This document shows positions 7,716-30,677 of a stretch of DNA of 35,895 nucleotides, one piece after another; position 1 is the stretch's first letter, and each line of letters begins with the position of its first letter. Under the pieces are notes generated by a model. The model had not been told where the DNA came from and did not search any database. It saw nothing but the letters and a program-made list of their open reading frames with translations. Both the position numbers and the translations under genes were made by a program. The stretch comes from Alphaproteobacteria bacterium (GTDB taxonomy: Bacteria; Pseudomonadota; Alphaproteobacteria; JAEUKQ01), in assembly GCA_016794225.1 (NCBI GenBank), contig JAEUKQ010000010.1, forward strand, positions 1-35,895. Reading direction: 5' to 3'.

Positions 7716-8432
7716 TTAAAAATTACGAAAGATGACACGGTAATTTCTTGGGGTATTCAAAAGATTTTTATTAATTATCCTGGTTTGTGGTAACATGTGG
7801 TCCAATGTCGCACGACCATCACTTTCAGTAAAATTTTGAATTGTATAGATTCCAGTAAAACTCCTATGTTCCAAGTCATTTATGATGGCATTCAAATCCT
7901 CTTCATTCAGCAGGTCTGTATGTACAGTCGTTCGCACTTCAAAAACTCCTGGCATCATTTTACATAAATAATCAAGCGTTCTTGAAAAAGAATCATATTT
8001 TACAGTTTGTGTAACATGGCGGAATTTTTGTGGAGGTGCCTTGTAGTCAAGCGCGATAAAATCAAGATATCCTTGCTTATGTAACAGCATTATTTTTTCT
8101 GGATATAAACCGTTAGTATCCAATTTGATGGGGTATTCCATCGTTTTTATCTGGGCAACAAAATCTATCAGTTCTCCGTAGACTAAAGCCTCGCCACCAG
8201 ATAAAACAACCCCCTCCAAAAGACCTTGGCGTTTTTTTAAAAAATCCAGGACGTATGCCGTATTAAAACGCCCATTTCCCCTAACGATTTGAGGGTTATG
8301 GCAGTAACGGCAACGCATGTTACAACCGCTGAACCAGACAATGCAGGCTGGGCGACCAGGATAATCAATCAGGGTAAATGGTGTAAGGTCATAAACTGGC
8401 AAAACATTGACACTAGAGCGGTGACGATCCAT
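7716..8432 (-). CDS. nrdG: Anaerobic ribonucleotide reductase activating enzyme
   Basis: This 238-residue radical SAM protein has CNMRCRYC, the CxxxCxxC that binds the [4Fe-4S]-SAM cluster, after TPFTLIDYPGRPACIVWFSG. GVVLSGGEALVY and KLDTNGLYPE are further radical SAM motifs. TLIDYPG and the length fit the longer NrdG branch (about 230 aa) rather than the short E. coli type (154 aa). It creates the glycyl radical on NrdD. The ATG at 8432 has GGAGAG upstream; the longer frame starts with a TTG that lies inside this site. It lies 53 bases after nrdD on the same strand, so an operon under the FNR box at 10634 is likely. Confidence 0.9.
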   Translation of the reverse strand: MDRHRSSVNVLPVYDLTPFTLIDYPGRPACIVWFSGCNMRCRYCHNPQIVRGNGRFNTAYVLDFLKKRQGLLEGVVLSGGEALVYGELIDFVAQIKTMEYPIKLDTNGLYPEKIMLLHKQGYLDFIALDYKAPPQKFRHVTQTVKYDSFSRTLDYLCKMMPGVFEVRTTVHTDLLNEEDLNAIINDLEHRSFTGIYTIQNFTESDGRATLDHMLPQTRIINKNLLNTPRNYRVIFRNF

Positions 8433-8485
8433 CACAAAACTCTCCAAGGGTTATTAGATTACGAATTGGAAAATTTTTATTCAAA

Positions 8486-10516
8486 TTACGTAAAGAAGTC
8501 TGGGGATTGAATCTTCCTTTCGATAAAATGCTTGCGCTGGCGATGTTCACCCTGTTTTCCCTTATTGAAACTGTCAATTGGGCGAAAATATCCCATAACG
8601 CGGGTCCAGATTTTTGTTTTGGCTTTACAGTGTGGGCACTCAGGTTGTTCGCCATTTAGATAACCATGCACGTCGCAGACAGAAAAAACAGGCGTTACAG
8701 TAATATAAGGTAGTTGGTAAGTACTGATCACTTTTTTTACAAACCGTTTGCAGGCTTCTGCACTAGAAAGTTTTTCGTTCATGTATAAGTGCAGAACAGT
8801 TCCGCCTGTATATTTGCACTGAAGTCGATTTTGAAGTTCTAGCGCCTCAAAGGGGTCTTCGGTGAAGTCGACTGGAATTTGTGAAGAATTAGTATAATAA
8901 ATATTCTCACCAACACCTGCCTGAATTATTCCGGCAAACCGTTTTTTATCTTCCTTAGCAAAGCGATATGTTGTGCCCTCTGCGGGGGTGGCCTCGAGAT
9001 TGTAAAGATTACCTGTTGTTTCCTGGTATTGAATCAGACGTGTACGCATATGATCGAGTATTGCAAGGCACAGATCTATACCGTATGTATCAGTCAAATC
9101 ATGTTGGTCGTTCGTGAAGTTGCTTACCATTTCATTCATGCCATTTACGCCAATGGTTGAAAAATGGTTGCGGAAAAATGGCAGATAACGAGCTGTGTAT
9201 GGGTAAAGACCCTGATTATACATTTTTTGGATAAATAACCGTTTTTTCTCGAGGGTAGATTTAGAAATATCCATCAGACGATCAATTTCTGCGAATAAAC
9301 CATCCCGATCACCCTTAAACCGGTACCCGAGTCGCGCCATATTAAGGGTAACAACACCGACAGAACCAGTCATTTCGGCTGAACCAAAAAGACCGTTTCC
9401 ACGCTTTAGCAACTCACGTAAATCCAACTGCAGCCTGCAACACATTGAGCGAACAGCACCCGGAGAGTAAGCTTCTGGGTTGTGTTTACGTTCTTTGGTT
9501 ATTGGGTCAATAATAAACTGGCTACCAATAAAATTCTGAAAGTAAGAAGAGCCAAATTTGGCTGTGTTTTCAAAGATAGCATTGGCTACCTTGTTTTCCC
9601 AATCAAAATCCTGAGTTATGTTAATAGTGGGGATGGGAAAAGTAAATGGCTGACCATTTGAATCTCCCTCTGTCATCACCTCGTAATAAGCCAGGACGAT
9701 CAGCTCCATTTCTGAGGCAAAGTGTTCGAAAGTTAAGTCCTCCAATGAACGAACGGCAATATCACGTTGTTGTGCTTTTTGTAAAAGGGCTTCGTTTTTC
9801 ACATTTTTAAACAAGTGTAAATTGCGATAAGTGGGAAATTGGCCTTTTAGATCCTCTGGCACTACAATGTCAAGCGTTATATTGGTAAAAGGCGACTGAC
9901 CCCAACGTGCAGGAACATTAAGGTTATAAATAAACTGGCGAATAGCTTTTTTCACTTCTTTAAAAGAAAGATTATCGTAGAAAACGTAGGGGGCTAGATA
10001 GGTATCAAAGCTAGAAAAAGCCTGTGCCCCTGCCCACTCTGATTGCAAAATACCTAAAAAATTGCTCATCTGCCCAAGAGCTTCGCGAAAATGCCGCGGT
10101 GGGTGTGAAGAAACACGGCCAGCAACGCCGTTGAATCCATCGTTTAGCAGCGACCGTAAAGACCAACCAGCACAATACCCTGTTAAGCAATCCAAATCGT
10201 GAATATGAAGATCACCCCGTCTATGGGCCAATGCTTCTTCAGCACTGTAAACTTCATCCAGCCAAAAATTGGCAATTACTTTGCCTGCAATATTATTGAT
10301 CATGCCTGCATTGGAATATCCAGCATTAGCGTTAGCTTTTACGCGCCAGTCCATACCAGAAATATATTCACTAACGGTTTCAGAACAATCAATTTTGGTG
10401 CCTCCGTATATTGTTACAATCTGGCCGTCATGGTACTCAGATCGTCTTGGAAGCGTTGTTGATTCGCAGACCATTGATAAAAAAGATTCAGAAAAGTTAA
10501 CAGCAGATTCCGGCAC
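8486..10516 (-). CDS. nrdD: Anaerobic ribonucleoside-triphosphate reductase
   Basis: This 676-residue class III ribonucleotide reductase makes dNTPs without oxygen. RRGDLHIHDLD near residue 100 and the C-terminal CDVHGYLNGEQPECPHC (a zinc site of form CxxH...CxxC) followed by RVMGY (radical glycine) are diagnostic. NKGKQGEHRQR follows, as in the family. The start is GTG at 10516 with AGGAGGA about five bases before it. The N-terminus goes straight into the catalytic barrel and shows no ATP-cone, unlike E. coli NrdD. nrdG follows downstream. An FNR box lies 118 bases upstream, fitting anaerobic induction. Confidence 0.95.
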   Translation of the reverse strand: MPESAVNFSESFLSMVCESTTLPRRSEYHDGQIVTIYGGTKIDCSETVSEYISGMDWRVKANANAGYSNAGMINNIAGKVIANFWLDEVYSAEEALAHRRGDLHIHDLDCLTGYCAGWSLRSLLNDGFNGVAGRVSSHPPRHFREALGQMSNFLGILQSEWAGAQAFSSFDTYLAPYVFYDNLSFKEVKKAIRQFIYNLNVPARWGQSPFTNITLDIVVPEDLKGQFPTYRNLHLFKNVKNEALLQKAQQRDIAVRSLEDLTFEHFASEMELIVLAYYEVMTEGDSNGQPFTFPIPTINITQDFDWENKVANAIFENTAKFGSSYFQNFIGSQFIIDPITKERKHNPEAYSPGAVRSMCCRLQLDLRELLKRGNGLFGSAEMTGSVGVVTLNMARLGYRFKGDRDGLFAEIDRLMDISKSTLEKKRLFIQKMYNQGLYPYTARYLPFFRNHFSTIGVNGMNEMVSNFTNDQHDLTDTYGIDLCLAILDHMRTRLIQYQETTGNLYNLEATPAEGTTYRFAKEDKKRFAGIIQAGVGENIYYTNSSQIPVDFTEDPFEALELQNRLQCKYTGGTVLHLYMNEKLSSAEACKRFVKKVISTYQLPYITVTPVFSVCDVHGYLNGEQPECPHCKAKTKIWTRVMGYFRPIDSFNKGKQGEHRQRKHFIERKIQSPDFFT

Positions 10517-10633: not shown

Positions 10634-10647
10634 TTGACTTAAGTCAA
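10634..10647. promoter_or_regulatory. FNR/DNR box upstream of nrdD
   Basis: TTGACTTAAGTCAA is a perfect palindrome of the FNR type (TTGAC-N4-GTCAA). If it sits at -41.5, transcription toward nrdD would start near 10599, with TAATTC on the minus strand (10606-10611) as -10. The box overlaps the stop codon of the ubiM-like gene (10639-10641). Confidence 0.7.
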
Positions 10648-11946: not shown

Positions 11947-13173
11947 ATGATTTCTTTTACTCAAGCACAACAAAAGATACAGGAAATTGCATCAAGTAAG
12001 GTGCTGGGCGCTGAAAAAGTTTCGCTGGAACATGCGGTTTTTCGTATTTTAGCCGAAGATATTTTTGTACCCTTTGATGTGCCAACTTTTGACAATGCGG
12101 CTATGGATGGTTTTGCAGTGTATTGCACTGATCTTGCTGCTGCAACAAGCGAATTTCCCATATCGCTGCCGAAGGCCGGTATTGTTGCTGCCAAGAATTA
12201 TAACAAACTTCCTGTCCTTAATCGCGGAACATGTCTTCAAGTGATGACCGGTGCACCTGTACCCATTGGAACAGAAGCGGTTATTCCTGTTGAAGATGTG
12301 CTGAATGCAGAAAAGCATATTATATACAAATCTCTTCCGGCAATCGGGGCGCATATTCGCTTGAAGGGGCAAGATTTTAGCAAGGGTAACTGTTTCCTAA
12401 CTAGAGGCACAAAAATAAGCAAGGCTCATATCATGGTATTGGCTACACTTGGGTGTGCTGAAGTTACGGTTTTTAAAAAACCGAACGTGCTTTTTATATC
12501 AACCGGGGCTGAAATCGTTGATGATATGGCCAGTCCGTTAAATCTTGGTCAGATTTATAATTCTAATCATCATTATGCCCGTGTTTTGCTTGAAGATTGG
12601 GGATGTATTTATCATCACCAACCATTAAGAGAGGACAAAATGGCTTCCTACGTTAATATGCTGCAAGATTCTGATAAGGCTGGTTACGATCTTGTTCTCT
12701 CGTCTGGTGCGGTATCGGCAGGTGCATATGATTTTGTTCAGGAAGGTCTTAAAAAAATAGGGGCTACGATTTTATATCATAAAATCAAGCTAAAACCCGG
12801 CAAACCCAATTTATTTGCTGTATTGCCATCGGGTGGATTGTATTTTGGGTTGCCAGGAAACCCTGTATCAACCGCGGTTGGATTACATTTTTTAGTTGGA
12901 TTGGCATTCACGATTATAACAGGTCAGCAACGCCCCCCTAAATTTTACGCGCGCCTTACGCGGCATATAGAAAAAAAGCAACCGCTGCATCTTATTCTCA
13001 AAGGGCAATATCGCCAGCTTCAAGATGGGACAATGACGGTTGATATCCTAGATGGTCAAGAATCGTTTATGGTACATCCTTTTGTTAATATGAATTGCTG
13101 GGTCTTTATTGACGAACAAAAACGTTCTTTACATAAGGACGAGGTGGTTGAATTTTATCCCCTGAGCATTTAA
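11947..13173 (+). CDS. moeA: Molybdopterin molybdotransferase MoeA
   Basis: This 408-residue protein inserts molybdate into adenylylated molybdopterin, the last step of Moco synthesis. PTFDNAAMDGFAVY is the MoeA signature. VMTGAPVPIGTEAVIPVED, VLFISTGAEIVDD, LVLSSGAVSAGAYDFVQEGL and LYFGLPGNPVSTAVG follow in the normal order; the last is the catalytic and substrate-binding region. The C-terminal domain (about 330-408) is the MoeA domain IV. No strong Shine-Dalgarno sequence is visible. It stands apart from the moa cluster at 28412 and overlaps the convergent regulator by four bases. It supplies Moco for NarG. Confidence 0.95.
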   Translation: MISFTQAQQKIQEIASSKVLGAEKVSLEHAVFRILAEDIFVPFDVPTFDNAAMDGFAVYCTDLAAATSEFPISLPKAGIVAAKNYNKLPVLNRGTCLQVMTGAPVPIGTEAVIPVEDVLNAEKHIIYKSLPAIGAHIRLKGQDFSKGNCFLTRGTKISKAHIMVLATLGCAEVTVFKKPNVLFISTGAEIVDDMASPLNLGQIYNSNHHYARVLLEDWGCIYHHQPLREDKMASYVNMLQDSDKAGYDLVLSSGAVSAGAYDFVQEGLKKIGATILYHKIKLKPGKPNLFAVLPSGGLYFGLPGNPVSTAVGLHFLVGLAFTIITGQQRPPKFYARLTRHIEKKQPLHLILKGQYRQLQDGTMTVDILDGQESFMVHPFVNMNCWVFIDEQKRSLHKDEVVEFYPLSI

Positions 13174-13913
13174 TGGGACATACAAACCTGGCAGCTACTT
13201 TTGTCATGGCGTTGGCAAAGCGCGGTGGTATCGGCATCACAAAAGTGACATAAAGCATAAGCATCCTTTAGACGGATCGTATTGTCGTCTGTATCAACGC
13301 CCAGTTCTTTCAACTGTTTTAAAACGCGCGAGAATGTTTCCGGTGTCATCCCCAGGTAATTGGCGATAATCTGTTTCTTGAAAGGCAGTTTTAATTCAAA
13401 ATTTTCGTGCCCGGCCTCAAGGTGTTTGGTTAAAAAATAATATCCAACCCGTTGCAGGGGTGATTTAATATGCATGGCATCAATCTGGTGCATGGCGTTT
13501 TTGTAATGGCGCGTAACAATTCTTAAAAGGTTAACCGCGAATTCATTGTCCTCAAGAACGCGTGTTTTAACCACCTTTTCAGGAATAAGTAACAAACGAC
13601 TTTTACCAATCGTTTGTACTGTAATAGGGGATGGCCCACCCATAAATAATACTGCTTCAAGGCAGGTATCGTTGGCCCCTAACAAGCGGATGGTTGCTTC
13701 TTCGCCATCGGCGTTCATGCGCAAGGTCTTGACCGACCCCTCAAGTATTAGAAATATACCAGGGGCTGCATCTCCTTGGTTTAATAAGATCTTATTAGCA
13801 TCGTGCTCTTGAATGACCGAGCATGACAGAATTTTTTCAAGGTTCTCCGGGCTTATGTGATCAAAAAGCTGTGGCTTTTTATTTTCATCCATAAACGGGT
13901 GAAATCGAGGCAT
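13170..13913 (-). CDS. Crp/Fnr regulator with C-terminal Cys cluster
   Basis: This 247-residue protein has a cNMP-type sensor barrel (about 30-150) with a long helix, then a winged HTH. In the recognition helix TPETFSRVLKQL, E-x-x-S-R is what FNR uses to read TTGAT. The N-terminal Cys cluster of E. coli FNR is missing. Instead the last 26 residues carry C222, C225, C233, C241 and C244 (CX2C-X7-C-X7-CX2C), with H223 and H236 nearby. This could hold an Fe-S cluster or zinc, giving a different oxygen sensor; Bacillus Fnr also uses C-terminal Cys. It is divergent from narK1 over paired FNR boxes, so autoregulation plus nar activation is likely. Confidence 0.85.
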   Translation of the reverse strand: MPRFHPFMDENKKPQLFDHISPENLEKILSCSVIQEHDANKILLNQGDAAPGIFLILEGSVKTLRMNADGEEATIRLLGANDTCLEAVLFMGGPSPITVQTIGKSRLLLIPEKVVKTRVLEDNEFAVNLLRIVTRHYKNAMHQIDAMHIKSPLQRVGYYFLTKHLEAGHENFELKLPFKKQIIANYLGMTPETFSRVLKQLKELGVDTDDNTIRLKDAYALCHFCDADTTALCQRHDKSSCQVCMSH

Positions 13914-13936: not shown

Positions 13937-13969
13937 CTGATTTGAATCAAGTCACTTGATTCAAATCAA
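13937..13969. promoter_or_regulatory. Paired FNR boxes between fnr-like and narK1
   Basis: TTGATTCAAATCAA (13956-13969) is a perfect FNR box. CTGATTTGAATCAA (13937-13950) is a second box with one mismatch; centres are 19 bases apart. Their inner halves form a perfect 23-base palindrome (13942-13964). With the right box at -41.5, narK1 transcription would start near 14004, with CATAAT (13992-13997) as -10. The left box lies 24 bases before the regulator gene start, suited to autoregulation. Confidence 0.8.
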
Positions 13970-14063
13970 GTCGGTTATGGCAGTGTATCGTCATAATAAA
14001 AAAATATCAAAAAATATTTTCTTACTCAGGCCGTATCAAGAAAACAATTCCAAGGATTTAACC

Positions 14064-15353
14064 ATGCTATCAAAAACAAATCAATCCCTTGCTCTTACTA
14101 TGTCAACAATTGCTTTTACGGTTTGTTTTGCTGTTTGGACAATTTTTGCCATCATCGGCGTTCAGATTAAGCAAGATTTGCAGCTAAGTGATACACAATT
14201 CAGTCTTTTAATTGGGATACCGATTCTAACAGGATCGTTGGTGCGTTTGTTTCTTGGTATCTGGGCCGACCAATATGGCGGACGGCCTATTTTTATGGTT
14301 ATTATGCTATCATCTGCGCTGTTTACCTGGTGTTTAACGTATGCCACTACCTATAATATGTTGCTTTTGACAGCTCTAGGGGTTGGATTATCTGGCGGAA
14401 GTTTCGTGGTTGGGATTTCCTATTTGTCAAAATGGTATGACAAACAGCACCAGGGTACGGCGCTTGGTATTTATGGTATGGGAAATATTGGGGCGGCTGT
14501 TACCAAATTTGTTGCCCCAATTATTATGGTTCATTATGGCTGGCATGCCGTTGCCAAAATATGGGCTATTTCCCTTGTTTTTATGGCGGTTTTGTTTTGG
14601 TTTTTTACCAAGGACGAGCCACAAATTCAGGCGCAGCGGGCTGCTAAGGCCTCTCCAAAATCCATGCTCGAATCTTTAAAGCCGCTTAAAAAATTACAAG
14701 TTTGGCGGTTTTCTTTTTATTATTTCTTTGTTTTTGGTGGCTTTGTGGCTTTAGCCTTGTGGTTGCCCCGCTATTATATTGGGGTTTACAAATTGGATAT
14801 CGAAATTGCTGGAATGCTTGCGGCCTCTTTTTCAGTTGCAGGGTCTTTGTTCCGGGCTGTTGGGGGTTATTTGTCTGATAAGTATGGGGCGCGAGCGGTA
14901 ATGTACTGGACCTTTATTGTATGTGCCTTGTGTTGTTTTTTGTTGGCTTATCCTGAAACGGAATATGTAATTCACGGAATTAAAGAAAATAAGTTCTTCA
15001 GCTTTGGTTGGGGTTTTATTCCATTTACCATTATCGTTTTCGTTCTTGGCTTTTTTATGTCCCTTGGTAAAGCTGCTATTTATAAACACATTCCGGTTTA
15101 CTATCCCAATGACGTTGGATCAGTTGCAGGTGTTGTGGGGTTGATTGGTGGTCTTGGCGGGTTCTTTTTACCAATCGGCTTCGGTCTTATGAATGACACG
15201 ATTGGTGTGTGGACCAGCTGTTTTATGTTGATGTTTATCCTTGTCGCTACGGCACTTGTCTGGATGCATGTTACGATTGTCCTTAAAGAACGCAACTTGA
15301 AAAAATCAAAATACCTACCCGAACTTGGCGAAGCACCAATAAAAACAAAATAA
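14064..15353 (+). CDS. narK1: Nitrate transporter, NarK1 type (MFS)
   Basis: This 429-residue, 12-segment MFS protein belongs to the nitrate/nitrite porter family. GLSGGSFVVGISYLSKWYDK then HQGTALGIYGMGNIGAAVTK is the nitrate signature of the first half; GVVGLIGGLGGFFLPIGFG is that of the second. NarK1-type proteins usually bring nitrate in with protons. The ATG at 14064 has AAGGA seven bases upstream. The longest frame starts at a TTG inside the FNR box and was rejected. narK2 follows 11 bases after the stop. In Paracoccus-type bacteria the two are fused; here they are separate. Confidence 0.88.
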   Translation: MLSKTNQSLALTMSTIAFTVCFAVWTIFAIIGVQIKQDLQLSDTQFSLLIGIPILTGSLVRLFLGIWADQYGGRPIFMVIMLSSALFTWCLTYATTYNMLLLTALGVGLSGGSFVVGISYLSKWYDKQHQGTALGIYGMGNIGAAVTKFVAPIIMVHYGWHAVAKIWAISLVFMAVLFWFFTKDEPQIQAQRAAKASPKSMLESLKPLKKLQVWRFSFYYFFVFGGFVALALWLPRYYIGVYKLDIEIAGMLAASFSVAGSLFRAVGGYLSDKYGARAVMYWTFIVCALCCFLLAYPETEYVIHGIKENKFFSFGWGFIPFTIIVFVLGFFMSLGKAAIYKHIPVYYPNDVGSVAGVVGLIGGLGGFFLPIGFGLMNDTIGVWTSCFMLMFILVATALVWMHVTIVLKERNLKKSKYLPELGEAPIKTK

Positions 15354-15364
15354 GGAGACAGAAT

Positions 15365-16972
15365 ATGAGCAAAGATATTTTAAAATGGGACCCCGAAAAT
15401 GAACAATTCTGGGGAAAAGAAGGCAAAGCAGTAGCTTGGCGAACATTAGCATTATCTATCCCTTGCTTGCTGTGTGGCTTTGCCGTTTGGATTTATTGGA
15501 GTGTTATAACCGTACAAATGCTTAATCTTGGATTTCCATTTAGCCAGCTAGAGTTGTTTACGCTAAATTCAATTGCTGGGTTTACTGGGGCAACTTTACG
15601 TATTCCTTCTTCCTTTTTTATCCGAATCGCGGGTGGTCGTAATACCCTGTTTTTGACAACGGCACTGCTGATTATTCCGGCACTTGCAACCGGAATTGCA
15701 TTGCAAGATGTTAATACCCCCCTTTGGGTATTCCAGATATTGGCATTACTTTGTGGATTTGGAGGAGGTAACTTTGCTTCTTCCATGTCTAACATCAGTT
15801 TTTTCTTTCCTAAGAAAATGCAAGGGTTGTCATTAGGGCTTAATGCCGGGCTTGGCAATTTTGGGGTTACAACAGCACAAATTGTTATTCCACTGGTTAT
15901 GACGTTTGGAGTATTTGGTGGCGATCCTATGAAGCTCAAAAGCGCCTCTGGAACGCTGATTGGGAAGATACCGGCTGGGGCTGAAACCTGGATTTTCAAT
16001 GCTGGATATGTTTGGGTTGTCATTCTTATACCGCTGGTTCTTCTGGCCTGGTTTGTTTTTCGCAATATACGTACGGAACATGTGTCACCTCAAATCGGGA
16101 ACCCAATGTCTTCTTTTGCAAAAATTATTATAATGTTAGTGGTGGGGTTGGTAACTTCGGTGGTTGGCCTTTGGTTAATGCTTCCAGAAAAAGCACATGG
16201 GTCTGGTTTAAATATTAGTAAATGGCTTGTGATGCCACTGGTTATTATGGCGACAATTGCTGTTTTGGCATTATTGCCGGGGTTAAGTGCACGGGTGCGT
16301 AGCCAGTATAAAATTTTTGCTCACCCTCATACCTGGATAATGACGATCATCTATACGATGACTTTTGGTTCGTTTATCGGATATTCAGCCGCTTTACCCC
16401 TATCAATCAAGGTTATTTTTGGATTCAAGCATCTAGTTGGACCAGATGGTGTTGTAACGCATACGATGGCCAACCCTAATGCACCCAGTGCATTAACATA
16501 TGCGTGGATTGGGCCATTTATAGGCGCTGTGATTAGACCATTTGGCGGGTGGCTATCGGATAAATTTGGTGGTGCACTGGTAACCCAGGTTTGTTCAGCT
16601 ATCATGATAGGGGGAGCGGTAGGTGCTGCTTATTACATGCAAGCGGCCTATGCTTCGCCCACACCAGAAGTGTATTTTATGCCGTTCTTTCTGACCTTTA
16701 TGGGGTTATTTCTTGCAGCAGGCATCGGCAATGGTTCAACTTTCCGCACAATCGCGGTTGTATTCGATCGCCAGCAAGCGGGACCAGTTCTGGGCTGGAC
16801 ATCAGCTATAGCGGCCTACGGTGCTTTTATCATTCCAATTGTTTTTGGTGATCAAATCGAAAAAGGATTTCCTGAATATGCCCTTTATGGTTTTGCCGTT
16901 TTCTATGGGATTTGTCTTTTACTAAATTGGGCAGCTTATCTACGTCCAGGCGCTAAATATAAAAACCCCTAG
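15365..16972 (+). CDS. narK2: Nitrate/nitrite antiporter, NarK2 type (MFS)
   Basis: This 535-residue MFS porter has the signature GGGNFASSMSNISFFFPKK then MQGLSLGLNAGLGNFGVTTA, and IGPFIGAVIRPFGGWLSDKF in the second half. It is longer than E. coli NarK (463 aa), with extra residues between the early helices (around the SGTLIGKIPAGAETW loop) and near the middle. NarK2-type proteins exchange external nitrate for internal nitrite. That is needed here because no nitrite reductase is present in the window. AGGAGA precedes the ATG. It is probably cotranscribed with narK1; the FNR box at 16985 follows its stop. Confidence 0.88.
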   Translation: MSKDILKWDPENEQFWGKEGKAVAWRTLALSIPCLLCGFAVWIYWSVITVQMLNLGFPFSQLELFTLNSIAGFTGATLRIPSSFFIRIAGGRNTLFLTTALLIIPALATGIALQDVNTPLWVFQILALLCGFGGGNFASSMSNISFFFPKKMQGLSLGLNAGLGNFGVTTAQIVIPLVMTFGVFGGDPMKLKSASGTLIGKIPAGAETWIFNAGYVWVVILIPLVLLAWFVFRNIRTEHVSPQIGNPMSSFAKIIIMLVVGLVTSVVGLWLMLPEKAHGSGLNISKWLVMPLVIMATIAVLALLPGLSARVRSQYKIFAHPHTWIMTIIYTMTFGSFIGYSAALPLSIKVIFGFKHLVGPDGVVTHTMANPNAPSALTYAWIGPFIGAVIRPFGGWLSDKFGGALVTQVCSAIMIGGAVGAAYYMQAAYASPTPEVYFMPFFLTFMGLFLAAGIGNGSTFRTIAVVFDRQQAGPVLGWTSAIAAYGAFIIPIVFGDQIEKGFPEYALYGFAVFYGICLLLNWAAYLRPGAKYKNP

Positions 16973-16984
16973 CAGAAAATAGTC

Positions 16985-16998
16985 TTGATCTTAATCAA
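16985..16998. promoter_or_regulatory. FNR box upstream of narG
   Basis: TTGATCTTAATCAA matches the FNR consensus exactly. It lies 52 bases before the narG ATG, between narK2 and narG, so narGHJI probably has its own anaerobic promoter. A -10 element is less clear (TAAGAA at 17025-17030 is possible). Confidence 0.8.
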
Positions 16999-17050
16999 GG
17001 CAATAAAAATGTAACGTGTCAGAGTAAGAATATGTAAGGAGTTATTGCAC

Positions 17051-20000
17051 ATGAGCTATTTTATTGATCGGATTAGCTATTTTACCCGCACGCGTGAGTC
17101 TTTTGCCAATGGACATGGCATAACCACCAATGAAAATAGGGCATGGGAAAAAGCTTACAGGGATCGATGGGCCCATGACAAGATTGTGCGGTCAACACAT
17201 GGCGTTAATTGTACTGGTTCTTGTTCGTGGAAAATTTATGTTAAGAACGGTCTAGTTACCTGGGAAACCCAGCAAACAGATTATCCGCGTACCCGTCCGG
17301 ATTTACCAAACCACGAACCGCGGGGTTGTTCTCGAGGAGCCAGTTACAGTTGGTATATATATGCGGCCAATCGCCTTAAATATCCGATGGTGCGCAAGCG
17401 ATTGCTTGATTTATGGCGTGCCACAAAACAACGGGTTGGTGGTGACCCGGTTGTTGCTTGGAAGTCGATTCAATCCGATCCGGCGGCTCGCCAGTCTTAT
17501 CAACAGGTGCGGGGGCGTGGTGGATTTGTTCGCGCTGCTTGGGAAGAGGTAAACGAAATAATTGCTGCGGCTAATATTTATACAATTAAGGAATACGGGC
17601 CGGATCGTGTTATTGGGTTTTCACCTATTCCTGCAATGTCAATGGTTTCTTATGCTGCCGGGTCGCGGTATCTTTCACTTTTGGGTGGTGTATGTATGAG
17701 TTTTTACGACTGGTATTGCGATTTACCTCCTTCCAGCCCTCAAACATGGGGTGAGCAGACAGATGTGCCGGAAAGTGCAGATTGGTACAATGCGGGCTTT
17801 ATTATTATGTGGGGATCTAATGTACCGCAAACCCGTACACCTGATGCCCACTTTATGACCGAAGCACGCTATAAGGGTACCCAGGTTGTTACAATTACCC
17901 CCGATTATTCCGAGGCATCAAAATTTGGTGATATTTGGTTAAATCCACGTCAAGGTACTGATGCAGCCCTTGGAATGGCAATGGGGCATGTGATTTTACG
18001 GGAATTTCACCTTGATCAGGCTTCAAGTTATTTTGATGATTATTGCCGTACTTATACCGACATGCCCTTCCTGGTGAAGCTTGAGATGCAGAATAACACC
18101 TATGTTCCAGGGCGAATGGTGCGTGCTTCTGATTTTAAGAATAATCTTGATGAAACAAATAATCCCGAGTGGAAAACGGTTTGTTTTGACCAAGATACCG
18201 ATACGATTACTGTGCCAACAGGATCGATAGGCTTTCGATGGGGCGAGCAAGGGAAATGGAATATAGTTCCTAATGATGCCAAGACTGGTAAACCCATACG
18301 TCCACGCAAGACACTGCTTGGAGTTCAGGATGCTATAGTAAAAGTGGCTTTCCCATATTTTGGTGGCCAAACGCACGAACATGATTACTTTAAATCCAAT
18401 GCCCGCAAAGATGTTCTTGAGCGTAATATTCCTGTTCGATATCTCGAATTGAATGGCAAAAAAGTTCCGGTTGCCTGTGTTTTTGATTTGCTATGTGCCC
18501 AATATGGATTGCACCGAGATGGATTAGATGGTGATCATGTTGCGCGCAACTATGATGAAAATGTTCCGTATACACCAAAATGGCAAGAGGGCATTACAGG
18601 TGTTTCTGCAGAAAAGGTTATACAGGTTGCCAAGGCCTTTGCCAAAAACGCTGATATGACCAAGGGAAAATCAATGATCATCATTGGTGCTGCCATGAAT
18701 CATTGGTATCATATGGACATGAATTATCGCGCCTGCATTAACATGCTGGTTTTTTGTGGGTGTGTTGGACAATCGGGTGGTGGTTGGTCTCATTATGTTG
18801 GGCAAGAAAAGTTGCGGCCACAAACCGGTTGGGTGCCACTTGCTTTTGCTTCGGATTGGAATCGCCCACCGCGGCAACAAAACTCGACATCTTTTTTCTA
18901 TGCACATACAGACCAGTGGCGCTACGAAACCTTGGAACTCAGTGAAATACTATCTCCTACTGCGGACCGTAGCAAATGGACTGGATCGCTTATGGATTGT
19001 AATGTTCGGTCTGTCCGTATGGGATGGCTACCATTTTTTCCCCAGCTTGAAGAAAATTCGATAGAACTTGTCAAAATGGCAGAAAAAAATGGGCAAGACC
19101 CAGTTGATTATGTTGTAAATAGACTAAGCCAGGGCAATTTGCGCATGTCGGTTGAAGACCCTGACAATCCTAAGAACTGGCCTAGGAATTTATTTGTTTG
19201 GCGTTCGAATTTACTGGGGTCTAGTGGTAAGGGGCATGAATATTTTCTAAAGTACTTTTTAGGTACACAGCATGGTGTTCAGGGAAAGGATTTGGGGGTT
19301 GAAGGTAAACGTCGTTCGACGGAGGTTGTATGGCACGACCAAGCTCCTGAAGGTAAGCTAGATCTGCTTGTAACCCTTGATTTTAGAATGTCTACAACCT
19401 GTGTCTATTCGGATATTGTTTTGCCAACGGCGAGTTGGTATGAAAAGAATGATTTGAACACATCCGATATGCATCCCTTTATCCATCCTTTGTCCAAGGC
19501 TATTGATCCTGTTTGGCAAAGTAGATCGGATTGGGAAATTTATAAAGGCATCGCCCAAACTTTTTCGGCGTTGTGTGTTGGTCATTTAGGGGTTGAAAAG
19601 GAAATCGTCCTAAGCCCTATTCAGCATGATACGGCTGGCGAGTTGGCGCAACCCGATGTCAAAGACTGGCGTAAGGGTGAGAACAAATTAATCCCTGGAA
19701 AAACCGGACCATCGATGAAAGTTATCGAGCGGGACTATCCAGCGACCTTTAATCGCTTTACCAGCTTGGGGCCGCTTCTTGAGAAATTGGGTAATGGTGG
19801 CAAGGGAATTAACTGGGATACCAATCATGAGGTTGAATTTTTAAAGAAATTAAATGGCGAGAAACAGGGACGCGTTAAGATAGACAGTGATATTGATGCT
19901 TGCGAAGTTATTCTGTCCCTTGCACCTGAAACCAATGGTGAAGTTGCAGTCAAAGGTTGGGAAGCTTTAAGCAAAATTACTGGACGGGATCATACCCATC

Positions 20001-20782
20001 TGGCTTTACCGAAAGAAGAAGAAAAAATTCGCTTTCGTGACATTCAGGCACAACCACGCAAGATTATTAGTTCGCCTACCTGGAGTGGCCTTGAGTCGGA
20101 ACATGTTTGTTATAACGCAGGTTATACAAATGTCCACGAATATATTCCATGGCGTACTTTGACGGGGCGTCAGCAATTATATCAAGATCACCCATGGATG
20201 GTTGATTTTGGTGAAGCCTTGGTTTCATATCGACCACCAATTAATACGCGCACTGTACAACATATGCTTAATAAGCATGGGGCTGAGTCACCAACGATTG
20301 TCCTAAATTTTATTACTCCGCATCAAAAATGGGGCATACACTCAACCTATACTGACAATTTGCACATGCTTACCCTTTCACGTGGCGGGCCAATTGTTTG
20401 GATCAGCGAGGTGGATGCCAAAAAAATTGGTGTTCAAGATAACGAATGGCTTGAAGTGTTTAATATTAACGGGGCGATTGTTGCACGTGCGGTTGTTTCG
20501 CAGCGGGTAAATGAAGGCATGATGATGATGTACCACGCGCAAGAAAAATTGGTACATACCCCCGGTAGTAAAATTACCAATGCGCGGGGGGGTATTCACA
20601 ACTCGGTTACGCGTGCTACGGTAAAGCCCACACACATGATTGGTGGTTATGCGCAGTTATCCTATGGGTTTAATTATTATGGCACTGTTGGTTCGAACCG
20701 GGACGAGTTTGTTGTTGTCCGAAAACTGGGACAGGTTGATTGGATGGACGAACCAGCGCAAGTAGGGGGTAATAAATCATGA
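17051..20782 (+). CDS. narG: Respiratory nitrate reductase alpha subunit
   Basis: This 1243-residue Mo-bisMGD subunit reduces nitrate to nitrite on the cytoplasmic face. H50, C54, C58 and C93 fall at the same positions as in E. coli NarG and bind the FS0 [4Fe-4S] cluster. SFYDWYCDLPPSSPQTWGEQ contains the Asp that coordinates Mo. The C-terminal HQKWGIHSTYTDN and GGYAQLSYGFNYYG are typical. The ATG at 17051 has AAGGAG upstream; a TTG at 17045 is too close to it. It overlaps narH by four bases. There is no Tat signal beyond the usual NarG N-terminus. It needs NarJ and the Moco genes of this window. Confidence 0.97.
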   Translation: MSYFIDRISYFTRTRESFANGHGITTNENRAWEKAYRDRWAHDKIVRSTHGVNCTGSCSWKIYVKNGLVTWETQQTDYPRTRPDLPNHEPRGCSRGASYSWYIYAANRLKYPMVRKRLLDLWRATKQRVGGDPVVAWKSIQSDPAARQSYQQVRGRGGFVRAAWEEVNEIIAAANIYTIKEYGPDRVIGFSPIPAMSMVSYAAGSRYLSLLGGVCMSFYDWYCDLPPSSPQTWGEQTDVPESADWYNAGFIIMWGSNVPQTRTPDAHFMTEARYKGTQVVTITPDYSEASKFGDIWLNPRQGTDAALGMAMGHVILREFHLDQASSYFDDYCRTYTDMPFLVKLEMQNNTYVPGRMVRASDFKNNLDETNNPEWKTVCFDQDTDTITVPTGSIGFRWGEQGKWNIVPNDAKTGKPIRPRKTLLGVQDAIVKVAFPYFGGQTHEHDYFKSNARKDVLERNIPVRYLELNGKKVPVACVFDLLCAQYGLHRDGLDGDHVARNYDENVPYTPKWQEGITGVSAEKVIQVAKAFAKNADMTKGKSMIIIGAAMNHWYHMDMNYRACINMLVFCGCVGQSGGGWSHYVGQEKLRPQTGWVPLAFASDWNRPPRQQNSTSFFYAHTDQWRYETLELSEILSPTADRSKWTGSLMDCNVRSVRMGWLPFFPQLEENSIELVKMAEKNGQDPVDYVVNRLSQGNLRMSVEDPDNPKNWPRNLFVWRSNLLGSSGKGHEYFLKYFLGTQHGVQGKDLGVEGKRRSTEVVWHDQAPEGKLDLLVTLDFRMSTTCVYSDIVLPTASWYEKNDLNTSDMHPFIHPLSKAIDPVWQSRSDWEIYKGIAQTFSALCVGHLGVEKEIVLSPIQHDTAGELAQPDVKDWRKGENKLIPGKTGPSMKVIERDYPATFNRFTSLGPLLEKLGNGGKGINWDTNHEVEFLKKLNGEKQGRVKIDSDIDACEVILSLAPETNGEVAVKGWEALSKITGRDHTHLALPKEEEKIRFRDIQAQPRKIISSPTWSGLESEHVCYNAGYTNVHEYIPWRTLTGRQQLYQDHPWMVDFGEALVSYRPPINTRTVQHMLNKHGAESPTIVLNFITPHQKWGIHSTYTDNLHMLTLSRGGPIVWISEVDAKKIGVQDNEWLEVFNINGAIVARAVVSQRVNEGMMMMYHAQEKLVHTPGSKITNARGGIHNSVTRATVKPTHMIGGYAQLSYGFNYYGTVGSNRDEFVVVRKLGQVDWMDEPAQVGGNKS

Positions 20783-22425
20783 AAGTTCGTGCACAGATTG
20801 GGATGGTTTTGAATTTGGATAAATGCATAGGCTGTCACACCTGCAGCGTCACGTGCAAGAACGTTTGGACGTCGCGCGAAGGTGTAGAGTATGCCTGGTT
20901 TAACAATGTTGAAACGAAACCGGGTATAGGATATCCGAAAGAATGGGAAAATCAAAAAAAATGGAAGGGTGGTTGGAATCGTAAATCAAATGGTCAAATA
21001 GAACCCCGCCAGGGAGGTCGTTGGCGTATTTTAGCGAATATTTTTGGCAATCCCAACCTACCAGAAATTGATGATTACTACGAACCATTTACATTTGATT
21101 ATGATCATCTTCAAAAAGCGCCAGAAATGAAAACAATGCCAACAGCGCGCCCACGTTCGCTTATTACGGGCGATCGGATGGAAAAAGTAAACTGGGGCCC
21201 TAACTGGGAAGAAATTCTGGGAACTGAGTTTGAAAGCCGCAAAAGAGATTATAATTTCAGGGATATTGAAAAAGAAATATATGGGGAATACGAAAATACA
21301 TTTATGATGTATCTTCCCCGTTTATGCGAACACTGTTTGAATCCAACTTGCGTGGCATCGTGCCCATCTGGGTCTATATATAAGCGCGAGGAAGATGGTA
21401 TAGTTCTGGTTGACCAGGATAAATGCCGTGGTTGGCGCATGTGTATTTCTGGCTGTCCGTATAAAAAAATCTATTACAACTGGAAAACTGGCAAAGCTGA
21501 AAAATGTACTTTCTGCTATCCACGCATAGAAAGTGGTGAACCAACGGTTTGCTCTGAGACTTGTGTTGGGCGTATTCGGTATTTAGGGGTTATTTTATAC
21601 GATGCTGATCGCATCCAAAATGCCGCTAGTGTTGCTAAAGAAGAAGATTTATACCAGGCTATGTGCGATATATTTCTTAATCCGCATGACCCAGCGGTTA
21701 TTGCGCAAGCGCGTAAAGATGGTATCCCTGATAACTGGATTGAAGGGGCACAGAGTTCGCCAGTCTATAAGATGGCTATTGAGTGGAAAGTTGCTTTCCC
21801 GCTTCATCCAGAATATCGGACACTACCAATGGTTTGGTATATACCTCCGTTGTCACCTGTTCAGTCGGCCATTACGCAAGGCAAGTTGCCGATAAATGAT
21901 GACGGGGTTGTGCCAAAAATCGATAATATGCGAATCCCAGTTAAATACTTGGCGAACATGTTAACCGGTGGCAATGAAGCGCCGATTCGCCTTGGGCTCG
22001 AGCGAATGATTGCCATGCGATATTATATGCGTAGTAAACTTATTGAAGGCAAGCCTGTCGAAAGATACTTAACAGAAGTTGGTCTTACTACTGCATTAGT
22101 TGAAGATATGTATAAAATTATGGCGATTGCAAATTACGAGGATCGCTACGTTATCCCAACTGGACACCGCGAAGAAACAATAGATGCTTTTGCTGAAAGC
22201 GGTGCTTGCGGTTTTTCTTTCGGCAATGGGTGTGCTGCGCACAGCAATAGCCAGACCGATATCTTTGAAGCCCCAAGACATTCACGCGGCCAGTCTGGTA
22301 GTATAAAAAGCAACCGCGTCAACACGATATTCGAGAGGGATTATTACGAAGGTAATGCAGCCACAAAAAGTAGCTGTAAAAGTGGGTGTGGTAGCTGCGG
22401 CGGTAATACTGGCGGGTGTGGCTAA
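20779..22425 (+). CDS. narH: Respiratory nitrate reductase beta subunit
   Basis: This 548-residue electron-transfer subunit has four Cys groups: CIGCHTCSVTC (C16, C19, C22, C26), CEHCLNPTCVASCP, CRGWRMCISGCP and CTFCYPRIESGEPTVCSETC. The Trp in CRGWRMC marks the [3Fe-4S] centre, as in E. coli NarH. So three [4Fe-4S] and one [3Fe-4S] centre pass electrons from NarI to NarG. It is about 36 residues longer than E. coli NarH. The extra end is rich in Gly and Cys: C533, C537, C540 and C547 in the last 18 residues. This tail is not part of the usual fold. It overlaps narG (ATGA). Confidence 0.95.
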   Translation: MKVRAQIGMVLNLDKCIGCHTCSVTCKNVWTSREGVEYAWFNNVETKPGIGYPKEWENQKKWKGGWNRKSNGQIEPRQGGRWRILANIFGNPNLPEIDDYYEPFTFDYDHLQKAPEMKTMPTARPRSLITGDRMEKVNWGPNWEEILGTEFESRKRDYNFRDIEKEIYGEYENTFMMYLPRLCEHCLNPTCVASCPSGSIYKREEDGIVLVDQDKCRGWRMCISGCPYKKIYYNWKTGKAEKCTFCYPRIESGEPTVCSETCVGRIRYLGVILYDADRIQNAASVAKEEDLYQAMCDIFLNPHDPAVIAQARKDGIPDNWIEGAQSSPVYKMAIEWKVAFPLHPEYRTLPMVWYIPPLSPVQSAITQGKLPINDDGVVPKIDNMRIPVKYLANMLTGGNEAPIRLGLERMIAMRYYMRSKLIEGKPVERYLTEVGLTTALVEDMYKIMAIANYEDRYVIPTGHREETIDAFAESGACGFSFGNGCAAHSNSQTDIFEAPRHSRGQSGSIKSNRVNTIFERDYYEGNAATKSSCKSGCGSCGGNTGGCG

Positions 22426-22439
22426 GGGTGGATAAAAAC

Positions 22440-22496
22440 ATGAATATTTTGCAAAAAGACATTGATAGTAAGGTGCTTATCCTAATTGCAGAATAG
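22440..22496 (+). CDS. Possible 18-residue small ORF between narH and narJ
   Basis: ATG at 22440 opens 18 codons (MNILQKDIDSKVLILIAE) to a TAG, and AAGGGTGG lies about eight bases upstream. It fills part of the only real gap in narGHJI. It could be translated and couple narH to narJ. It is too short to judge by composition. Confidence 0.25.
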   Translation: MNILQKDIDSKVLILIAE

Positions 22497-22533
22497 ATAT
22501 TGATCTTTGATTTACTACAAAAGAAGCGTTACT

Positions 22534-23235
22534 ATGAGAACATTAAAAATACTTGGTTTTTTCTTAAGTTACCCTGACCACAGACATCAGGAGATGGCTG
22601 TTGAATCCTATGAATTACTGGCTCTGGAGAAATGGTTGGATGCAAGAACTATCAAAGATATTGGTGCATTCTTTGCTATGTTTAACAGCCGCAATCTGCT
22701 TGATACACAGGAAGATTATGTTGCGCTTTTTGACCGTACACCGTCGCTATCGTTGCATCTTTTCGAACATGTTCATGGAGATTCGCGCGATCGTGGTCAG
22801 GCCCTTGCCGATTTGTTACAGGTTTATAAAGATGCTGGGCTTTCCATCAATATAGAGGAAACACCAGATTACTTGCCACTGTTTTTAGAATATACATCGA
22901 CATTAACCCCCCAGGAAGCATCAGAAACCTTAGGAAGTGTTGTTGATATTTTAAGTTCTTTGGCATTAAGGCTTAAAAATCGTGATTCCCTTTACGCCAA
23001 AATTCTAGAAGGGCTGGTTACTGTTGCCTCACAAAAACCCAGTAGAAAGGTCATCGATTCGTATTTAGAAAAATCTTCAGGCGCTATGTTGACAACACAA
23101 GAAATTGACAAAACTTGGGAAGAGCAGTTTGCTTTTGAGCAATCAGGGCGAACTATCAACCAAGCTGGGTCATGTCCTATCTCTGAAGAAATGCTTGAAC
23201 GAATAAAAAATATTCAGTCAAAGGAACAAGTTTGA
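22534..23235 (+). CDS. narJ: Nitrate reductase assembly chaperone NarJ
   Basis: This 233-residue protein is the cytoplasmic chaperone that helps insert Moco and Fe-S into NarGH before membrane docking. MRTLKILGFFLSYPD at the start, then LFEHVHGDSRDRGQALADLL and DYLPLFLEYTSTL are hallmarks of the NarJ/TorD-like family (helical). The ATG at 22534 was chosen over an earlier TTG because the family begins just before LSYPD. The C-terminus carries SCPISEEMLERIKN. It follows narH after 108 bases and abuts narI. Confidence 0.92.
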   Translation: MRTLKILGFFLSYPDHRHQEMAVESYELLALEKWLDARTIKDIGAFFAMFNSRNLLDTQEDYVALFDRTPSLSLHLFEHVHGDSRDRGQALADLLQVYKDAGLSINIEETPDYLPLFLEYTSTLTPQEASETLGSVVDILSSLALRLKNRDSLYAKILEGLVTVASQKPSRKVIDSYLEKSSGAMLTTQEIDKTWEEQFAFEQSGRTINQAGSCPISEEMLERIKNIQSKEQV

Positions 23236-23237
23236 TC

Positions 23238-23924
23238 ATGCCACATTTTCTTGATTTTTTCCTGTTTCAAATACTTCCCTACATCGCAATTGTTACGTTT
23301 ATTATGGGTACGATTTTACGCTTTGATCGTGATCCCTATTCATGGCGGACAAAATCAAGCCAGCTTCTACGCCGTAAACAATTGGTTGTTGGTAGCATTC
23401 TGTTTCATCTAGGTATTTTAGTCGTTCTAGCAGGCCATCTGGTTGGGCTTTTAACACCTATCGAAGTTTTTGATGCCTTGGGGATTTCCCACCGTGCAAA
23501 GCAAATATTGGCGATTATACTTGGTGGAATCGCAGGTGTGTTTTGCTTGGTTGGGTTGTGTCTTTTACTACACCGGCGTCTTTTTGATGCGCGAATTCGT
23601 AAAAACAGTTCGTGGGCTGATATTATGGTTCTTTTATTGCTGCTGATTCAGCTTGTTTTAGGATTGATAACTATTCCTTTTTCTATGGCGCATTTGGATG
23701 GACATGAAATGGTAAAATTTATGAACTGGGCACAGCATATTGTTACATTTGGTGGCAACGCACATCTATTTATAGCAGATGTTGCCCTTGTTTTTAAACT
23801 GCATATCGTATTTGGTCTTTTGATCTTGGTGGTTTTTCCGTTCACACGGTTGGTTCATGCTTTAAGTGCGCCAATAGGTTATGTTATACGGCCGTACCAA
23901 ATTGTTCGTAAGCGGGCGAAATAG
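23238..23924 (+). CDS. narI: Respiratory nitrate reductase gamma subunit (cytochrome b)
   Basis: This 228-residue membrane subunit has five predicted helices. It takes electrons from quinol and holds two hemes b. H57 and H67 in LFHLGILVVLAGHLVG, and the two His in FKLHIVFGLLILVVFPFTRL plus VHAL, are the four heme ligands in the usual places. The start is uncertain. ATG at 23238 aligns with E. coli NarI, but AAGGA is 12 bases away; a TTG at 23232, 6 bases after AAGGA and overlapping the narJ stop, is equally possible. Confidence 0.93.
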   Translation: MPHFLDFFLFQILPYIAIVTFIMGTILRFDRDPYSWRTKSSQLLRRKQLVVGSILFHLGILVVLAGHLVGLLTPIEVFDALGISHRAKQILAIILGGIAGVFCLVGLCLLLHRRLFDARIRKNSSWADIMVLLLLLIQLVLGLITIPFSMAHLDGHEMVKFMNWAQHIVTFGGNAHLFIADVALVFKLHIVFGLLILVVFPFTRLVHALSAPIGYVIRPYQIVRKRAK

Positions 23925-28180: not shown

Positions 28181-28221
28181 TTGATTTTAATCAAGGTATT
28201 AGGATAACTTTCTGTTATAGT
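28181..28221 (+). promoter_or_regulatory. FNR-dependent promoter of the moa operon
   Basis: TTGATTTTAATCAA (28181-28194) is a perfect FNR box centred at 28187.5. TATAGT at 28216-28221 is at the right spacing for a class II FNR promoter, predicting a start near 28229. The transcript would then carry the whole Moco riboswitch. Confidence 0.75.
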
Positions 28222-28411: not shown

Positions 28412-29398
28412 ATGCATGAACCGTTGTTGACGGATGGTTTTGGGCGTCACTTCCCCTACCTGCGTTTATCAATTACCGATGTTTGTAATTTTCGCTGTTC
28501 TTATTGCTTGCCCAATGGCTACCACCAAACCGGTCGGGAAGATTTTTTAACTATTCATGAAATACAGCGTTTGGTAAGGGCTTTTACCGGGCTTGGCGTT
28601 TGGAAATTTCGCCTTACCGGTGGTGAGCCAACAATTAGGCCAGATTTTCTTGATATAGTGTCTGCGGTGGCTGAGGTGCCAGGGGTTAGAAAACTTGCTT
28701 TTACAACCAACGGATATAAACTGCGCGATCGGGCAAATTCCTATTATAACGCCGGGTTGCGGGCGGTTAACGTCAGCATCGATTCACTCGATCCACACCA
28801 ATTTGCCCGCATAACTGGTCATGAACGGTTGCCGGAAATTCTTGAAGGGATAGATTTATGCTTGAAGATTGGGTTTCACCCAGTCAAGATTAATACGGTT
28901 TTATTGAAGAACCTTAATGATGCTGAACTTGACACATTTATTCAATTTGTAGCTGATAAGCCAATTTCATTGCGGTTTATCGAGCTGATGCGTACGGGTG
29001 AGAATAAAACCTATTTTGACCAACACCATCTGCCCGGACATTACATTGTTGAACGTCTGTTGGCAGGCGGTTGGTGCTTGCAAGAGCGGTCGGGTGGTGC
29101 CGGACCAGCCCAAGAGTTTGGACACCCGCAAAGCCTTGGGACAATTGGATTAATTGCGCCATACAGCAAAGATTTTTGCCAGACTTGCAACCGATTGCGT
29201 ATATCTGCAAAAGGGGCGCTCCATTTATGTCTTTTTGGCGAGGGTGGCTATTCGTTGCGCCATCTTTTGCAAGCTGATGATCAATTAGAAAAGCTACAAC
29301 AACAAATACTTGATTTGTTGCAGTATAAAAAATCCAGCCATTTTCTACATCAGGGTATTACCGGTATTACACCTCATTTAGCGTCAATTGGCGGTTAG
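28412..29398 (+). CDS. moaA: GTP 3',8-cyclase MoaA
   Basis: This 328-residue radical SAM enzyme starts Moco synthesis from GTP. CNFRCSYC near residue 25 binds the SAM cluster, and FCQTCNRLRISAKGALHLCLF near the C-terminus carries the second [4Fe-4S] site that holds GTP. The last residues are GG, as required for MoaA activity. FRLTGGEPTIRPDF and FTTNGYKL are further family motifs. It is the first gene of the Moco operon, controlled by the FNR box and the riboswitch. It ends 12 bases before moaCB. Confidence 0.96.
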   Translation: MHEPLLTDGFGRHFPYLRLSITDVCNFRCSYCLPNGYHQTGREDFLTIHEIQRLVRAFTGLGVWKFRLTGGEPTIRPDFLDIVSAVAEVPGVRKLAFTTNGYKLRDRANSYYNAGLRAVNVSIDSLDPHQFARITGHERLPEILEGIDLCLKIGFHPVKINTVLLKNLNDAELDTFIQFVADKPISLRFIELMRTGENKTYFDQHHLPGHYIVERLLAGGWCLQERSGGAGPAQEFGHPQSLGTIGLIAPYSKDFCQTCNRLRISAKGALHLCLFGEGGYSLRHLLQADDQLEKLQQQILDLLQYKKSSHFLHQGITGITPHLASIGG

Positions 29399-29410
29399 GG
29401 AGATTGGTTG

Positions 29411-30436
29411 ATGAACAAGCCTATGGAACATATTCAGTTCTCTAAAGAACAAACAAATTTTCGGATGATTGATGTTGGGCGTAAAAGACCTACGCATCGG
29501 CGGGCTGTTGCTTGTGGTTCAATCAAAATGAACAGCAAAGCTTTTCAAGCGGTATGGGATAAAAAACTGCCCAAAGGGGATGTATTGGCACTGGCCGAGA
29601 TAGCAGGGATTATGGCCGCTAAAAACACCCCGTCTATTATCCCAATGTGTCATACATTACCACTTGATCAGGTTACACTTCATTGCATGTTGGATCAAAA
29701 AACACATAAAATTACTGTTTATGCCCAAGCTGTTGCTTTTGCCAAAACAGGTGTGGAGATGGAGGCTTTAGCCGCTGTTAATGCTGCCTTGCTAACAATA
29801 TGGGACTTAACCAAGGGAACAGACCCACACCTATTAATAGAAGATGTGCGCCTACTGGTTAAAACGGGCGGCAAAAGCGGCGTTTGGATTCATCAGGAAG
29901 GAATTCCTGATTGGCTTGCGGCTGAATTGCCTGAAACACAGTTTTTAAGACACAAAGTTGCTGCTATTTTGGTGATGAGCGACCGCGCATCCAAAGGCAT
30001 ATATACGGATGATTCTGGCCCATTGTTGCGCACATTGCTGCACCAAGCTGGAGCGCAGGTTGTTGGCCCTAAAGTTATTCCGGATCAAGAAGCCGATATT
30101 ATTCAGGCTGTTGCTGATCTTTGTTCAAAAAACCGTCCTGATATCTTAATTGCATCCGGCGGGACAGGGCCAGGCCCAAGAGATATTACACCAGATGTGC
30201 TGCGCAAAATATGTGACCGTATGTTGGATGGTCTTGGGGAAGTATTGCGTGCGGAAAGCATGTATCATACGGGTACTGCCTGGCTATCACGTATGACGGC
30301 TGGCATGTATGGTTCAACGCTTATTGTTGCCTTTCCAGGCTCCCCTAAAGCAGTACAGGAATGTTGGGATATTGTAAGCCCTTTTTTGGGTGATGCCATT
30401 GCCAAAATTAGAAAACAAGGTTTTGAAAAGCCATGA
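29411..30436 (+). CDS. moaCB: MoaC-MoaB/Mog fusion, Moco biosynthesis
   Basis: This 341-residue fusion has two halves. Residues about 1-160 are MoaC, which makes cyclic pyranopterin phosphate: MIDVGRKRPTHRRAVACGSI, LAEIAGIMAAKNTPSIIPMCH, and VEMEALAAVNAALLTIWDLT. Residues about 180-341 are MoaB/Mog-type: VAAILVMSDRASKGIYTDDS, then ILIASGGTGPGPRDITPD, a fold that binds molybdopterin for adenylylation. Joining them is known in some bacteria. The start is ATG 29411, with AGGGAG before it. Stop and moaD start overlap (ATGA). With moeA this covers the late Mo-insertion steps, so no separate mog is needed. Confidence 0.92.
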   Translation: MNKPMEHIQFSKEQTNFRMIDVGRKRPTHRRAVACGSIKMNSKAFQAVWDKKLPKGDVLALAEIAGIMAAKNTPSIIPMCHTLPLDQVTLHCMLDQKTHKITVYAQAVAFAKTGVEMEALAAVNAALLTIWDLTKGTDPHLLIEDVRLLVKTGGKSGVWIHQEGIPDWLAAELPETQFLRHKVAAILVMSDRASKGIYTDDSGPLLRTLLHQAGAQVVGPKVIPDQEADIIQAVADLCSKNRPDILIASGGTGPGPRDITPDVLRKICDRMLDGLGEVLRAESMYHTGTAWLSRMTAGMYGSTLIVAFPGSPKAVQECWDIVSPFLGDAIAKIRKQGFEKP

Positions 30437-30675: not shown

Positions 30676-30677
30676 TT

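Follow-up and report, generated by a model that had tools for sequence, protein, structure and literature searches.

Genomic Context and Domain Organization of P0001

The stretch of alphaproteobacterial DNA analyzed here (hereafter referred to as the window; 35,895 nt) encodes a 247 aa Crp/Fnr-family regulator, P0001, on the reverse strand (13170..13913), recognized from its translation, its Pfam matches and its membership in a conserved family. The gene is divergent from a narK1-narK2-narGHJI cluster and convergent with moeA, and nrdDG and moa genes lie on the same contig. Translation and synteny place narK1 (14064..15353), narK2 (15365..16972) and narGHJI (17045..23924) on the forward strand. 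The narK1 frame begins with an ATG at 14064 after an AAGGA element; the TTG start given in the ORF list is unlikely because it overlaps an FNR box. The moeA gene (11947..13173, forward strand; identified by translation) is a conserved neighbor in loci L002, L038, L039 and L040. Two further groups of genes are putative targets of regulation: nrdD and nrdG (7716..10516, reverse strand), encoding an anaerobic ribonucleotide reductase and assigned by translation and synteny, and the Moco synthesis genes moaA, moaC/mog, moaE and mobA (28412..31647, forward strand), assigned by translation.

Two Pfam models, PF00027 and PF13545, match P0001 above their cut-offs, and structure comparison also retrieves Crp/Fnr proteins; the best PDB match is DNR. 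The cNMP_binding-like sensor domain (PF00027, E 3.6e-14) spans residues 36–115 (13569..13808, reverse strand) and is not preceded by the FNR N-terminal Cys motif, while HTH_Crp_2 covers residues 154–223; the NIT domain (PF08376) was absent from P0001 in the Pfam search. The best NCBIfam match is FtrB, but its score of 135.2 bits falls short of the curated cut-off of 211 bits, and P0001 is therefore not assigned to FtrB (PRK09392/NF006901). The recognition-helix motif ETFSR (residues 192–196; 13326..13340, reverse strand), identified by translation, Pfam and an alignment of 39 homologs, corresponds to the E-x-x-S-R of E. coli FNR and is invariant across the alignment except at its third residue. 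Cysteines occur at positions 31, 84, 222, 225, 233, 241 and 244, and the final five form an exact CX2C-X7-C-X7-CX2C pattern within the last 26 residues (13173..13250, reverse strand), a tail that we propose as a [4Fe-4S] site on the basis of its conservation, fixed spacing and predicted fold. No CX2C-X5/7-C motif was found in residues 1–70. The translation thus bears out the three structural claims of the first-pass annotation: an FNR-type E-x-x-S-R helix, no N-terminal cluster cysteines, and a C-terminal CX2C-X7-C-X7-CX2C array. P0001 shares with canonical FNR proteins the E-x-x-S-R helix and, as predicted sites, TTGAT-N4-ATCAA boxes; it is nevertheless not itself a canonical FNR of the E. 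coli FNR, FnrP or FnrN type, since it lacks the N-terminal motif and falls outside the FNR clade in the tree described below.

FNR Boxes in the Window and at Homologous Loci

A pattern search identified four FNR boxes in the window, preceding nrdD, narK, narG and moaA. The first (13956..13969; TTGATTCAAATCAA) is a perfect box between P0001 and narK1, and is also seen in homologous promoters. A -10-like CATAAT element for narK1 (13992..13997, forward strand), proposed from the sequence, would put this box at approximately -41.5, a class II position and the site reported in most Fnr-activated Sphingopyxis promoters (PMC7713065). The second box (16985..16998; TTGATCTTAATCAA) lies before narG, the third (10634..10647; TTGACTTAAGTCAA) lies upstream of nrdD, where it overlaps the very end of the ORF before it, and the fourth (28181..28194; TTGATTTTAATCAA) separates moaA from a second Crp/Fnr gene. 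Boxes before nrdD were also found in L039, L040 and L043. The moaA leader further contains a Moco riboswitch (RF01055; 28255..28417, forward strand; Rfam 54.3 bits, E 1.7e-10), and because this element sits between the fourth box and moaA, the Moco genes appear to be under both transcriptional and riboswitch control.

The genome to which the window belongs contains 34 perfect FNR boxes. Five of these are non-coding, and four of the five are in the window; the 30 boxes outside the window all fall in predicted coding regions, bar one (L056). Among 44 family loci, in which the usual divergent neighbor of the tail-bearing gene is narK1, a perfect TTGA[CT]N4[AG]TCAA is present in the promoter region of 35, and the reversed control pattern in none. 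The count rises to 37 of 44 if two loci are added by eye: L001, whose box (at 5923) lies inside an upstream-extended ORF, and L146, which matches in tail sequence and layout. Synteny and predicted boxes together connect P0001 with both the nar and the Moco genes, as had been suggested from the window sequence, and P0001 probably controls the adjoining nitrate-respiration genes.

Other Crp/Fnr Proteins in the Genome

The window assembly, estimated by the completeness tool at 100%, encodes three Crp/Fnr proteins: P0001, its paralog P0002, and a protein without a Cys motif located beside a YcaO-like gene. P0002 (27262..27969, reverse strand; assigned by sequence and tree) adjoins nnrS, carries ETFSR and lacks the Cys tail, yet its C-terminus is otherwise similar (ALVDFCDLSLSEVFY), as in L144 and L145; it is perhaps an NO-responsive DNR-type regulator. 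A search with an Fnr model (E 1e-12) did not find a canonical FNR in this genome. The possibility that one is encoded elsewhere in the assembly was set aside on the strength of that search and of inspection of all three Crp/Fnr proteins. A canonical FNR was likewise not recovered from most genomes carrying standalone tail-bearing proteins.

Conservation of the Cysteine Tail

The 39-member alignment, built from searches over alphaproteobacterial genomes, reveals that the family-constant tail consists of four cysteines, LCx2C(D)x6Cx7C(P). C222, C233 and C241 are each present in all 39 homologs, C225 and Asp226 in 38, and the CX2C-X7-C-X7-C spacing is free of insertions and deletions throughout. 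The tail is kept in homologs down to 26–35% identity, more than chance would give, and the first-pass annotation withstood its own test, variation of the cysteines among homologs. In one homolog (G290, locus L043) a Tyr occupies the C225 position, leaving three Cys and a His. The fifth cysteine, C244, occurs in only 10 of the 39. All five are retained in two named MAG homologs with 57–65% identity to P0001. The conserved unit is therefore four cysteines, and the first-pass view of a five-cysteine motif holds for its first four members but not for C244. The same count leads us to reject a family-wide CX2C-X15-CX2C zinc ribbon. AlphaFold2, run with the 39-member alignment, assigns pLDDT values of 84–89 to residues 221–240 and thus predicts a folded tail as far as about residue 240. 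In genome G119 the regulator copy is split over two frames (L040:9760-10513), through sequencing error or else gene decay; this genome also encodes the second tail type described below (L186).

Distribution, Phylogeny and NIT Fusions

A sample of 385 genomes spanning the class Alphaproteobacteria yielded the four-Cys tail in 11 (the Tyr-bearing G290 being one of them), and a family match was obtained in 41 of 249 genomes of a single order, where the tails read from the matching loci were all of the four-Cys type. The family comprises two subclades, one of standalone proteins like P0001 and another whose members are mostly 510–590 aa long. Every relative of the 510–590 aa class that was scanned carries an N-terminal NIT domain (PF08376, nitrate/nitrite-sensing; E 1e-26 to 1e-40), and by length there are about 29 such NIT-type relatives. 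Both forms co-occur in some genomes. The NIT-cNMP-HTH-Cys-tail fusions (L044:2556-4223, L045:5-1438, L092:9507-11228, L093:9748-11313 and L150-L175) are mostly divergent from narK1, and it is possible that they act as one-protein sensors of nitrate and oxygen. NIT-Crp proteins were not found on named plasmids, and the five Crp/Fnr proteins taken from records of named plasmids lack the Cys tail. An FNR box and cbb3-oxidase-like genes, in place of nar genes, come immediately downstream of one standalone tail-bearing member (G115; L094:9619-17298).

Several genomes with NIT-fused proteins (G384, G293 and G680) also encode a canonical FNR with an N-terminal CX2C-X7-C. Since canonical FNR is missing from most standalone-tail genomes and kept in several NIT-fused ones, the Cys tail could substitute for FNR in the former and supplement it in the latter, where it may sense something other than O2.

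In a tree computed on the protein core, with the tail left out, FnrP, FnrN and FnrL form a separate, strongly supported clade. The hypothesis that all tail-bearing proteins constitute a single clade received a p-AU of 0.28.

A Sister Group with Three Tail Cysteines and a Hinge Cysteine

A sister Crp/Fnr group of 15 proteins (L005, L067, L081, L085, L108, L137, L142, L186, L188, L189, L192, L198, L205, L207 and L208) bears a C-terminal CX2C-X5-C tail with the spacing of E. coli FNR, as illustrated by CNFCSISEEC in L005 versus CQDCSISQLC in E. coli FNR (Cys20/23/29). All 15 possess an invariant fourth Cys in the DNA-binding domain, 34–37 residues before the HTH motif. This hinge Cys is found in none of 40 four-Cys-tail proteins; it does occur in two tail-less proteins, L074 and L187, the latter resembling a truncated tail. 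The complementarity between three tail cysteines plus one hinge Cys and four tail cysteines is hard to explain other than by a four-ligand center. Some sister-group genes adjoin hemN (L081/L096 and L067/L098) and cbb3-oxidase-like genes (L067/L098).

Nature of the Cysteine Site

On this comparative evidence, the four tail cysteines of the P0001 family very probably constitute a metal site, and we consider it likely, with somewhat less confidence, that the tail of P0001 is a relocated FNR-like [4Fe-4S] sensor of O2 or NO. The first three tail cysteines have the same CX2C-X7-C arrangement as the N-termini of the canonical FNRs found among the surveyed genomes. The earlier proposal of a different cluster or a zinc site stands insofar as a metal or cluster sensor apart from the N-terminal FNR site is the best reading; the cluster itself need not be different, however, because this spacing exactly matches that of the FnrP/FnrN [4Fe-4S] ligands (PMC4771820).

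For P0001 we infer a cluster type, a signal, a direction of regulation and a mechanism, as follows. P0001, a Crp/Fnr protein of the DNR/FtrB-like kind, would govern anaerobic nitrate respiration, its sensor having been displaced to the C-terminal end of the DNA-binding domain. There C222, C225, C233 and C241 would hold a metal center, in all likelihood a [4Fe-4S] cluster labile to O2 and NO. Under anoxia this cluster would assemble and hold the tail in an ordered state on the helix-turn-helix domain; the dimer would then bind TTGAT-N4-ATCAA boxes and activate narK1K2, narGHJI, moa and nrdDG; O2 or excess NO would cause loss of the cluster and end activation. The N-terminal NIT of many relatives would add nitrate/nitrite sensing, so that a single polypeptide would register “no O2” as well as “nitrate present”, a task split between FnrP and NarR in Paracoccus.

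The four cysteines might instead bind a structural or redox-responsive zinc, the signal (nitrate, nitrite or haem-NO) arriving through the cNMP-like domain or, in relatives, through NIT. Zinc is commonly bound by a CX2C with two further Cys and zinc sites use the same ligands, the NIT fusions show that the signal can come from another domain, some carriers keep a canonical FNR, and the three Cys and His of G290 speak against a [4Fe-4S] site. A CX2C...CX2C zinc ribbon, however, fits poorly with a dispensable fifth Cys (10/39) and an obligatory central C233 (39/39); the tail reproduces the FnrP/FnrN cluster-ligand spacing; the sister tail, spaced as in E. coli FNR, and its hinge Cys (15/15) resemble FNR; and FNR boxes are present in the window genome in the absence of a canonical FNR. 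Spacing, targets and the missing FNR thus favor Fe-S, and we regard the zinc reading as unlikely. Less likely again is that the FNR boxes are read by P0002 or by some undetected factor, so that P0001 does not drive the regulon and its tail only modulates autoregulation: P0002 shares the ETFSR motif and is encoded on this contig, next to nnrS and the moaA box, but the gene across the box from narK in conserved loci is the tail-bearing one and not a P0002 ortholog. Crp/Fnr precedents for thiol-disulfide switching exist in CprK and FLP, and P0001 has five thiols close together, but a metal-free tail in which disulfide formation inactivates DNA binding is very improbable given two hallmarks of metal coordination, the constant four-Cys geometry without length change in 39 proteins and the 3+1 complementarity of the sister group.

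Returning to the Fe-S reading, the fixed tail and the NIT fusions point to a largely undescribed O2- or NO-sensing branch of a well-known family. A broader interpretation, which we hold tentatively and at slightly below even chances, is that the Alphaproteobacteria possess a second FNR-like branch with a C-terminal cluster motif in two layouts (either four Cys in the tail, or three there and one at the hinge), the four-Cys branch often being fused to NIT to form an AND gate in a single component, which responds to “no oxygen” together with “nitrate present” and takes the place of FNR plus NarR. If true, it would mean that an O2-sensing FNR-like cluster changed its place on the Crp/Fnr scaffold in an event separate from that in Bacillus, and it would explain the working of FNR-box regulons in bacteria without FNR and provide nitrate-respiring Alphaproteobacteria with a compact nitrate-plus-oxygen sensor. 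The two Cys layouts yield clean ligand predictions.

Comparison with Known Systems

A C-terminal cluster is already known in the Crp/Fnr superfamily from Bacillus Fnr, where a [4Fe-4S] cluster is held by three C-terminal Cys (CX2C-X4-C) and a remote Asp (PMC3520743; PMC12937710), and an FNR-like protein with such a cluster is therefore not new in itself. Like P0001, the Fnr proteins of B. subtilis and B. cereus are Crp/Fnr regulators with a C-terminal Cys-rich extension, which in B. subtilis houses the O2-sensing cluster. The layout differs, however: the third ligand follows after X4 in Bacillus Fnr, X7 in the P0001 family (39/39) and X5 in the sister tail, and the P0001 family has four local Cys, belongs to a DNR/FtrB-like alphaproteobacterial branch and is often fused to NIT. 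Compared via the published spacing, direct homology between the two tails is not supported.

Our search of open-access papers found no account of an alphaproteobacterial C-terminal-Cys Crp/Fnr branch, with either tail, or of a NIT-Crp fusion, and any claim to priority is accordingly tentative. Corynebacterial ArnR is a [4Fe-4S] protein that regulates narKGHJI and bears C-terminal Cys (PMC12343034), but it is a repressor with a MarR/ArsR-like fold, unrelated to P0001. The putative role of P0001 resembles that of NarR, which controls nar, as suggested by its location beside narK. In Sphingopyxis granuli, a NarR-like “ftrB” is divergent from narUGHJI (PMC4741004; PMC7713065) and may be a member of the P0001 family. 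The long relatives of P0001 share the PF08376 NIT domain with NasR-type nitrate receptors, but whereas the latter act through an ANTAR output, these relatives do so through a Crp/Fnr DNA-binding domain.

FnrP, FnrN and FnrL share with P0001 the E-x-x-S-R helix, FNR boxes and CX2C-X7-C spacing. The [4Fe-4S] ligands of P. denitrificans FnrP are Cys14, 17, 25 and 113, that is, CX2C-X7-C plus one (PMC4771820), the layout peculiar to FnrN proteins of Alphaproteobacteria (PMC7713065). In these proteins the cysteines are N-terminal, with one more at about position 113, whereas P0001 adds a fourth Cys seven residues past an FnrP-like CX2C-X7-C.
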